In this document: positions 48,163 through 49,955 of the stretch, in pieces
Numbering within the stretch: the stretch's first letter is position 1
Layout: each line of letters begins with the position of its first letter
Source of the DNA: Halosimplex halophilum
GTDB taxonomy: Archaea; Halobacteriota; Halobacteria; Halobacteriales; Haloarculaceae
Direction: 5' to 3'
NCBI RefSeq assembly: GCF_004698125.1
Contig: NZ_SRHV01000005.1
Coordinates: 496,001 to 560,000, forward strand
DNA: 64,000 nt
Notes under the pieces: model-generated
The model's database searches: none
Told to the model about the DNA's origin: nothing
The model's input: only the letters and a program-made list of their open reading frames with translations
Made by a program: the position numbers and the translations under genes

Positions 48163-48588
48163 TCAGTCACTCGCGTCGGATTCCGCGGAGCTGTCGTACA
48201 TGGTTTCGAACTCCCGTTCGCCGCGGATCAGGTCCTCGACGCCGTCGGCGAGCACGACTTCACCGAAGACGGTCGCTCGGTAGTACGTGTAGAGTCCATC
48301 CTGTCCGCGTTCGGTCCGCTGGCGCTTCTCGACGAGACCCACGTCGACGAGTTCGTTGAGGTGGTAGTGGAGCGTGCTGTCGTCGATATCCATCGCCGCT
48401 TCGAGTTCGGTCGGGCTCATATCCCCTCCATGAACCAGTCGATAGAGGACTTCGTACCGAGTTCTGTGGCCGACAGCGGCGTGCATAGCGAGGTACTCGT
48501 CGAGCGAGAGGACACTGTCCGCCGGCAGCAACTCCTCCGGGTCGTCCGGGAAGCCGTTCTCCGCCCCCGACGTGTGGTCGATCGCCAT
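48163..48588 (-). CDS. ArsR-like winged-helix regulator, divergent to the deoxyribosyltransferase-like gene
   Basis: 141 aa. The DNA-binding domain is HAAVGHRTRYEVLYRLVHGGDMSPTELEAAMDIDDSTLHYHLNELVDVGLVEKRQR, a winged helix of the ArsR/GntR-like haloarchaeal type, with the wing TERGQDGLYTYYRATVFG. The tail LADGVEDLIRGEREF is helical. The start ATG at 48588 is taken; an in-frame extension to 48651 lacks protein-like sequence. Codon use has more A/T at third positions than in the neighbours (hisS, S19e). It is 97 bp upstream of the divergently transcribed gene at 48686, so it may control that gene and itself. Confidence 0.82.
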   Translation of the reverse strand: MAIDHTSGAENGFPDDPEELLPADSVLSLDEYLAMHAAVGHRTRYEVLYRLVHGGDMSPTELEAAMDIDDSTLHYHLNELVDVGLVEKRQRTERGQDGLYTYYRATVFGEVVLADGVEDLIRGEREFETMYDSSAESDASD

Positions 48589-48656
48589 CTCGTGATCGAG
48601 TAGTGGACGAGCGAACTTAGCTGTTCTCAAGCCGACGATCGCTGAAAACACCGTAC

Positions 48657-48664
48657 TTTATAAA
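48657..48664 (+). promoter_or_regulatory. TATA-like box for the gene at 48686
   Basis: TTTATAAA, a strong palindromic TATA box, sits 22-29 bp before the ATG at 48686, in the 97-bp divergent space shared with the HTH gene. Consistent with leaderless transcription. Confidence 0.6.
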
Positions 48665-48685
48665 TTGTGCGGCGGAAAGACGGGT

Positions 48686-49306
48686 ATGTCCGCGGAGATA
48701 ACGCGTGAATCGATCGCCGAGCAGCTGGGGGGCGTGAAATACGACCAATTTCTGTTCTACCTGATGGGGCCGTACAAGTCGTTTAACCTCAACTACGTGC
48801 TTAGCGAGGAGGAACGCGAGGGGATCGATATCGAAGATCTCCCGGGGCCGATACGGCGGCTGTTCCGAAACAGAGACGACATCGACGCAGCACAGCGGCT
48901 CTTGCGACGGGTACAGGGAAAACTCCGGACGGACCCGGGAGTGAACGCGTTTCTGGCGCTCGATATCGGGGTCGATACCGACGACGTGGACGCGGCGACC
49001 CAGAGTATCGAGTTCACGCGATGTAGTAACGCGACGGCATTCGTACTCCCGTTTCTCGGACATAACTTCGGTGTCGGTGAGGAGGCCGGGAGCGTGCTCG
49101 AAGCGCTTTCGGAAACGCACGGGGATCGGCTGGTGTTCGTTCGCGAAGAAGACGTGACGAGCGCCATGATCCGGTCGGCTACGGTACGCTGGGACCTACA
49201 GGTGGAGACCTACGAGACGGAGGCGGAACTCGTCGCGAAGCTGCGGCGGTTCGCCGGGAGGATCATGCAGCGTGAACGCCGCGGTGACCTCGATCGGCTC
49301 GACTGA
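48686..49306 (+). CDS. Uncharacterised protein with nucleoside deoxyribosyltransferase-like features
   Basis: 206 aa, no named family assigned with confidence. The pattern FLFYLMGPYKSFN (residues 22-34) resembles the first strand and loop of the nucleoside 2-deoxyribosyltransferase (NDT) group, whose members start with Y-x-x-G-P; a later stretch ATAFVLPFLGHNFGVGEEAGSVLEALSE (117-142) resembles the second-half motif with a nucleophilic Glu after a small-residue loop (here GVGEE). The middle (residues 40-85) is a charged helical insertion. A short Leu/Arg-rich tail ends it. TIR domains are distant relatives of NDT. DNA or nucleotide processing is inference. GC content is lower than in the flanking genes. 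Confidence 0.75.
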   Translation: MSAEITRESIAEQLGGVKYDQFLFYLMGPYKSFNLNYVLSEEEREGIDIEDLPGPIRRLFRNRDDIDAAQRLLRRVQGKLRTDPGVNAFLALDIGVDTDDVDAATQSIEFTRCSNATAFVLPFLGHNFGVGEEAGSVLEALSETHGDRLVFVREEDVTSAMIRSATVRWDLQVETYETEAELVAKLRRFAGRIMQRERRGDLDRLD

Positions 49307-49331: not shown

Positions 49332-49955
49332 TCAACGGCTCCGCCCACGCACCCGCGACTGAACGTGCTCGGGGAACACGTCGGCGACGGTCCCCTCGCC
49401 GTGCTCGGCGGCCATCAGTGCCCGCAGTTCGGTCTCGTAGTCGCCGGTCGGAAGCCGCTCGCTCGGGCCGGTCTCCACCTCCAGCAGCCGCCCGGTCAGC
49501 TCGTCGATGGCCCCGCGGCCGTAGCCGGCGAGCGGGCGCAGGTAGTCGACGCCGTGGCGGTCCTCCAGGCTCTGTGCGAACGGCCGCTCGATTGCGGGCG
49601 CGCGGTCGTCGCGGCGGGTGCCGTCGGCCACGGCGTCGAATGGGCGGCCGTCGACCTCGTCGCGGCCCGCGACCGTCTCCAGCGCGTGCTCGTGGACCAG
49701 CTGGATCCCCTCGCGGGGGTAGCCGTCGGCGACCATCCGGTCGACGGCCTCGCGGGCGACCGACGCGTCCAGCTCGACGGTCGCCACCGGGAACCCCGCT
49801 CGCTCGCCGGCCTCGCGAGCGGTCCCGGCGACCGACGGGCCCGCGTCGAGGGCGAACGTGCAGCTACAGAGGGTCACGTCGTAGAACGGTTCCAGAACGA
49901 GGGCGGCGAGCGTCGAGTCCTTGCCGGCGGAAAAGAGCGCGGCGACCGTCGGCAT
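49332..49955 (-). CDS. PP-loop ATP pyrophosphatase
   Basis: 207 aa. The N-type ATP-pyrophosphatase P-loop is ALFSAGKDSTLAALVL (SGGxDS-like SAGKDS). Further motifs: LVHEHALETVAG and VADGTRRDDRAPAIE, where the D-x-T-R/D stretch matches the family's ATP-site loop. Such enzymes adenylate a substrate, for example in tRNA thiolation or diphthamide synthesis; substrate not identified. The length is shorter than ThiI or TtuA proteins. Its start (49955) is directly adjacent to the stop of the PDCD5-like gene (49956), so they are in one operon with S19e upstream. Confidence 0.82.
   Translation of the reverse strand: MPTVAALFSAGKDSTLAALVLEPFYDVTLCSCTFALDAGPSVAGTAREAGERAGFPVATVELDASVAREAVDRMVADGYPREGIQLVHEHALETVAGRDEVDGRPFDAVADGTRRDDRAPAIERPFAQSLEDRHGVDYLRPLAGYGRGAIDELTGRLLEVETGPSERLPTGDYETELRALMAAEHGEGTVADVFPEHVQSRVRGRSR

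Follow-up and report, generated by a model that had tools for sequence, protein, structure and literature searches.

The question raised by this locus is what a small pair of divergent genes does between hisS on one side and a DUF7411-PDCD5-S19e run on the other, in the 64,000-nucleotide stretch of Halosimplex halophilum DNA analysed here (the window). An earlier note, made from the letters alone, had taken the pair for a deoxyribosyltransferase (NDT)-like enzyme under a private winged-helix regulator, in DNA that looked recently acquired. The open reading frames, their coordinates and the motifs FYLMGPYKSFN and GVGEEAGSVLEAL of the 206-aa protein were as it had described. The regulator, a 141-aa ArsR/HTH_20-like winged-helix protein (PF12840, E 2.4e-12; hereafter HTH), is encoded at 48163-48588 on the minus strand and the 206-aa protein at 48686-49306 on the plus strand, with 97 bp separating the two start codons. 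We found that the 206-aa protein is a full-length match to Pfam PF24349 (DUF7509; 305.6 bits). No use of the name DUF7509 was found in the papers searched, and neither PADLOC nor NCBIfam holds a model for it. The strong TATA box claimed for this gene is TTTATAAA at 48657-48664 on the plus strand, 29 nt upstream of the ATG, a spacing that suggests a nearly leaderless transcript. A longer form of the HTH could start at a GTG at 48651, but the part of this extension that recurs in relatives looks like conserved regulatory DNA. The neighbouring DUF7411 protein (49332-49955), which begins with MPTVAALFSAGKDS, a PP-loop ATP-pyrophosphatase signature, is encoded close to PDCD5 and S19e in a compact gene run and is possibly an RNA-modification or translation-related enzyme.

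The fold of DUF7509 was examined with AlphaFold2 and Foldseek. The model of the window protein, built from a 48-sequence alignment, reached a pLDDT of 82 and a pTM of 0.81, with residues 31-58 as its low-confidence part; a second model, made for a protein of another genome that belongs to a short-loop subfamily, reached a pLDDT of 90.7. Both models show a five-stranded Rossmann-like N-glycosidase fold. Against the PDB, the window model matched MilB (4ohb, E 2e-4) and DNPH1 (9ia6, 3e-4) best, with TIR domains lower, and the second model matched DNPH1 (1.3e-5), TIR-STING (3.8e-5), BcmB and MilB (about 3e-4) and NDT (about 3e-3), in this order. The N-glycosidases DNPH1, MilB and BcmB lead, followed by NDT and TIR domains, and further Rossmann-like proteins in the lists mostly ranked under these matches. 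At the level of sequence, a PDB search with the DUF7509 profile gave nothing significant, and the PF05014 profile gave no significant match, one of the 48 DUF7509 members touching it at E 0.014. An hhalign comparison with haloarchaeal PF05014/DNPH1-like proteins covered 36 columns (E 0.008), a short alignment of low probability, in which E133 falls on their nucleophile Glu. Two short genes, in L127 (1966-2517) and L128 (1979-2575), had been candidates for broken DUF7509 copies; they belong to an intact subfamily devoid of the variable loop (residues 31-58), and were excluded from the count of broken genes.

Nine residues (M27, P29, Y30, D93, Q106, G129, E133, G135 and S159) are invariant in the 48 diverse DUF7509 homologues, and the motifs of the window protein are evidently not due to chance, given this conservation. 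The Glu of GVGEE, which the earlier note had expected at the active-site pocket, is E133, the nucleophile position of a G-x-G-x-E-x-G motif (G129, E133 and G135 in 48/48, G131 in 47/48). Position 25, at the end of strand 1, is Tyr in 43 and Phe in five of the 48, and the key residues of the window protein are Y25, M27-G28-P29-Y30, D93, Q106, E133 and S159. In the hhalign register, and from the DNPH1 sequence around these residues, Y25 presumably corresponds to Y24 of DNPH1 and E133 to its E104. The DNPH1 triad consists of Y24, D80 and E104, with the phosphate held by S98 and S128' (PMC10603095); the strand-1 residue is Y24 in DNPH1 and F17 in MilB, Tyr going with a preference for deoxyribose (PMC10603095). 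The catalytic Asp was not found in DUF7509: the position aligned with D80 is S107 in 47/48 and Thr in 1/48, in a register given by the short hhalign alignment and by equal spacing to the next strand, and in the same register S98 is replaced by N127 or Thr. D93 may belong to the small helix on which DNPH1 has E55/H56, as judged from the order of secondary structure. These replacements make an activity on dNMPs doubtful and a non-catalytic role possible.

Members of the TIR–DrHyd–SLOG clade share a three-layer alpha/beta fold with a five-stranded sheet, conserved polar residues after strand 1 and a catalytic Glu (PMC9503650). DUF7509 has this architecture, an MGPY loop after strand 1 and a conserved E133. 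Since the nucleophile Glu is kept but the catalytic Asp of DNPH1 is replaced, DUF7509 is best classed as a separate, new family within this clade, not as NDT/DNPH1 proper; the NDT-like reading therefore stands for the NDT/TIR-type fold and the nucleophile, and fails for NDT in the strict sense. Divergent members in five loci (L119 and L121-L124) have Phe in place of Tyr at position 25. The same difference separates ribose-preferring MilB from deoxyribose-preferring DNPH1 (PMC10603095), and a shift of substrate in these members is possible.

Of the 391 haloarchaeal genomes sampled from the class, 213 (about half) have DUF7509, as do 66 of 86 genera, with at most four matches per genome; Haloferax volcanii has a copy. 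In the phylum sample, there were no matches outside the window organism's own order. Searches of phage records and of IMG/VR contigs found no homologue, so that a virus-borne gene is unsupported.

We found the HTH gene divergently adjacent to DUF7509 in 108/108 loci of the first scan, which combined two kinds of genome search. In a second set, of divergent DUF7509 copies (24-45% identity), an HTH gene lay beside every intact copy; the only locus that had no DUF7509 call in the first scan is a scarred one, L125. The two genes are co-directional yet still adjacent in L215 and divergent in all other loci examined. Insertions were seen at two loci: a TnpB-like gene between HTH and DUF7509 in L216 (2022-4542), and about 1.8 kb splitting DUF7509 in L126 (1966-4600). 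The two proteins co-diverge, with a Mantel r of 0.94 over 100 loci (best of 999 permutations, 0.28) and of 0.90 within the main clade, a statistic that ignores host relatedness.

The spacer between the genes contains an operator-like element (48616-48649, no strand assigned), which comprises a block conserved in the alignment of upstream regions, CTTAGCTGTTCTCAAGCCGA (48616-48635), and an inverted repeat, GTTCTCAAG (48623-48631) and CTGAAAAC (48642-48649), beside the BRE/TATA region with TTTATAAA. The motif matched 72 of 100 spacers, as compared with 0.2 in shuffles, having been built from the same spacers on which it was scored. A TATA-like box was present in 88 of 100 loci (shuffled, 11), mostly 28-33 nt upstream of the start. 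A search of eight genomes for the half-site, allowing two mismatches, gave exactly one site with 0-1 mismatch in each of seven genomes, always at the HTH gene; these include genomes with the HTH alone (G094, G115) or scarred (G093). The eighth, G070, had no such site, and its solo HTH has lost the element; two-mismatch sites were at control level in the eight genomes. A half-site found near-exact only at the HTH gene fits a private repressor. Together with the presence of an HTH gene beside every intact DUF7509 examined, this strongly bears out the private regulator proposed from the window alone.

The partnership is lost from one side. A census of HTH genes in 146 genomes of one family gave a clean separation of scores, nearly all being at least 169 bits with a few partial or divergent ones below. 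In this family, 69 of the 69 intact DUF7509 genes among the matches listed had an HTH partner, and at least 22 intact HTH genes stood without an intact enzyme gene: in 15 cases DUF7509 was absent, in seven it was broken. Some solo HTH genes sat in genomes devoid of any DUF7509. Six further loci had both genes broken, or the HTH gone along with the intact DUF7509. Because some losses share ancestry, the number of independent events is below 22, perhaps 16-18 by our own estimate. A 30-residue scar of DUF7509 remains in L205. L114 and L201 come from two sister genomes with synteny to the left and right of the locus (87-89%), and L201 lacks DUF7509 only, with the HTH 97% identical. At one site in three Halosimplex genomes (L006, L125 and L195), the cassette is complete, scarred and lost, respectively. 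The best paired relative of a solo HTH usually equals or exceeds its best solo relative in identity, so that the solo copies look like repeated losses. Solo HTH genes are under purifying selection (dN/dS 0.08-0.15), several of them retain the operator and TATA box, and no alternative partner recurs beside them. In L202 (2506-5625; G066), a complete cassette is accompanied, at a distance of about 2 kb, by a second HTH copy that is solo. Orphan antitoxins have been proposed to protect against incoming cassettes (PMC7192599); by analogy, solo HTHs might do likewise, or might do something else.

The HTH-DUF7509 cassette is mobile, as indicated by its differing flanks, by empty or VapBC-filled sites within the genus and by plasmid copies. 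Outside Halosimplex, its flanks differ from those in the window. In Halosimplex itself, the cassette sits at the hisS-DUF7411 junction of three genomes (that of the window, G090 and G091); this junction is taken up by a VapB-PIN pair in G092, which carries the cassette at another site (81% identity), and by unrelated short DNA in others. In G092 the pair, VapB (PF02697) and a PIN-domain protein, occupies the slot of the cassette between hisS and DUF7411 (L152, 786-1426). A single intergenic site thus hosts different two-gene modules in sister species. On plasmids, the cassette adjoins ParA and a TRAM protein (L131, L223), ParA-Orc1/Cdc6 (L133), or UPF0175/DUF3368 genes that resemble a toxin-antitoxin pair (L132). 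The order ParA, small protein, TRAM, HTH, DUF7509 is common to L131 (424-3733) and L223 (433-3740), on plasmids of different genera, as if the cassette belonged to a plasmid-maintenance block.

The compositional dip on which recent acquisition had been argued is real. GC falls from about 0.70 to 0.59-0.61 across 48.25-49.25 kb, about ten points over the pair, and GC3 is 0.75 for DUF7509 and 0.80 for the HTH gene, as compared with 0.93 +/- 0.05 for the 50 coding-like ORFs of the window, among which DUF7509 ranks lowest and the HTH gene in the lowest four. However, the cassette is below its flanks in GC in 45 of 47 other loci and tracks host GC (r 0.87); low GC is therefore typical of it, and the dip is not good evidence of recent arrival. 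The same cassette occupies this site in two other Halosimplex genomes (about 91% protein identity), Halosimplex carlsbadense being a close relative of the window organism (91%). The case for a recent acquisition is thus weak.

Taken together, we consider the cassette to be a toxin-antitoxin-like conflict module with a predicted nucleotide/NAD+ glycosidase effector, with a probability of about 0.55, on the basis of the fold, the invariant Glu, the pairing, the operator-like element, the mobility and the one-sided loss. DUF7509 would be an N-glycosidase-type enzyme of the TIR–DrHyd–SLOG clade with E133 as nucleophile. It would act on a nucleotide, with NAD+ or a (deoxy)nucleoside monophosphate as the probable substrate, and would harm the cell when unrestrained. 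The winged-helix protein would bind the inverted repeat between the two promoters and repress both the DUF7509 gene and its own, and may additionally neutralise DUF7509 as an antitoxin does a toxin. The enzymatic activity, substrate and toxicity of DUF7509, its repression by the HTH and the trigger are what we infer in this reading. An HTH that is kept when the enzyme is lost, and never missing beside an intact enzyme, is expected if DUF7509 is harmful unless controlled; with the fold, the invariant Glu and a mobile, partly plasmid-borne context, a restrained harmful glycosidase is the most economical account. The mobility, the plasmid-maintenance context and the one-sided loss indirectly support a module of the conflict type. 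Against it stand the replaced equivalents of D80 and S98, the divergent order unlike a classical antitoxin-toxin operon, and the fact that the counted losses are not all phylogenetically independent. Nor is there a defence island: recurrent defence genes were not found near DUF7509 loci, none of the 149 Pfam families among 131 neighbours occurring more than four times, and the lack of a PADLOC model and of copies in phages or viral contigs points the same way. Matches to Cas12f among the neighbours are most likely TnpB transposon proteins.

The many copies on main chromosomes and the strong conservation of DUF7509 also suit a useful enzyme, such as a DNPH1-like sanitiser or salvage enzyme of the nucleotide pool whose dedicated repressor senses a damaged or excess nucleotide. 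The nearest folds, DNPH1 and MilB, work on dNMP and CMP (PMC10603095), and the Tyr25 of 43/48 members is the residue that goes with deoxyribose preference in DNPH1 (PMC10603095). A useful enzyme should, however, sometimes outlive its regulator, which was never seen, whereas the reverse is common; with a patchy, mobile and partly plasmid-borne distribution and the missing catalytic Asp and phosphate Ser, we regard this explanation as unlikely. The missing Asp also suits a signalling pair, in which the HTH controls genes elsewhere by reading a ligand derived from a nucleotide, with DUF7509 as the maker or sensor of this ligand; both signal-makers and non-catalytic sensors are known among TIR, DrHyd and SLOG domains (PMC9503650), and the purifying selection on solo HTH genes agrees with this reading. 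Since near-exact half-sites occurred only at the HTH gene in the genomes searched, this motif reveals no further regulon, and no effector gene recurs near DUF7509 loci, which leaves such signalling distinctly improbable. Intact solo HTH genes number at least 15, some of them in genomes devoid of DUF7509, and their dN/dS is near 0.1. This could also mean that the HTH is useful in its own right and DUF7509 a dispensable passenger, in which case the one-sided loss would be uninformative about toxicity. A passenger would hardly keep its active-site positions invariant across 24-45% identity or co-diverge with the HTH, and the identities to paired relatives indicate repeated losses; we give this idea very little weight.

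The preferred reading, a conflict module held in check by its HTH, can be extended to a novel type of toxin-antitoxin or abortive-infection system in archaea, widespread in Halobacteria, in which an NAD+/nucleotide glycosidase of a new TIR–DrHyd family would be countered by the HTH as repressor and antidote, and solo HTHs would guard against incoming cassettes; we put this forward tentatively. To our knowledge, few such toxin or immune-effector systems have been characterised in archaea. The TIR–DrHyd–SLOG placement and a regulator that is never the first to be lost make DUF7509 a testable candidate for one.

Among known systems, DNPH1, MilB and BcmB (NDT superfamily, DrHyd) are closest in structure, sharing with DUF7509 the top Foldseek ranks, Y-x-x-G at strand 1, the nucleophile Glu of GVGxExG, and the same succession of helix, strand and Glu loop. 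Unlike them, DUF7509 has Ser/Thr for the catalytic Asp, no S98-type phosphate Ser, no significant match to PF05014, an extra variable loop (31-60), and an invariant D93 and S159. TIR domains and TIR-like NADases (TIR-STING, AbTir, DUF4062/Swarozyc) are the second-best fold matches and share the single invariant Glu. DUF4062/Swarozyc has been shown to be a TIR-like NADase with kinship to TIR and NDT, and its polypeptide also includes an auxiliary winged-helix domain (PMC13174449), whereas DUF7509 is a stand-alone domain, its NADase activity putative and its winged helix a separate protein of DNA-binding type. Retron-Eco1 (Ec86) has an NDT-like effector that defends via NAD+ hydrolysis (PMC12405507), and NDT and winged-helix parts recur among retron genes (PMC12548924); these cases show that the fold family yields NAD+-hydrolysing effectors. 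The DUF7509 cassette differs from Retron-Eco1 in consisting of only two genes, on opposite strands. The neighbours of the cassette in the window are hisS, DUF7411, PDCD5 and S19e, with none recognised as a reverse transcriptase or msDNA gene, and no reverse transcriptase family was among the 25 most frequent of the 149 neighbour families. A Thoeris ThsA effector (SIR2-SLOG or macro) was likewise not found beside the cassette of the window, and PADLOC gave no match for DUF7509. Type II toxin-antitoxin systems differ in gene order, being operons with a common transcript, whereas the cassette is divergent in all loci examined but the co-directional L215, and the toxin and antitoxin roles assigned here are putative. 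With these systems and their orphan antitoxins (e.g. in Klebsiella, PMC7192599), the cassette nevertheless shares two small, adjacent and co-inherited genes, a partner of DNA-binding type, an operator-like element, a plasmid-maintenance context, an abundant solo partner, and a site that VapBC occupies in a sister species.
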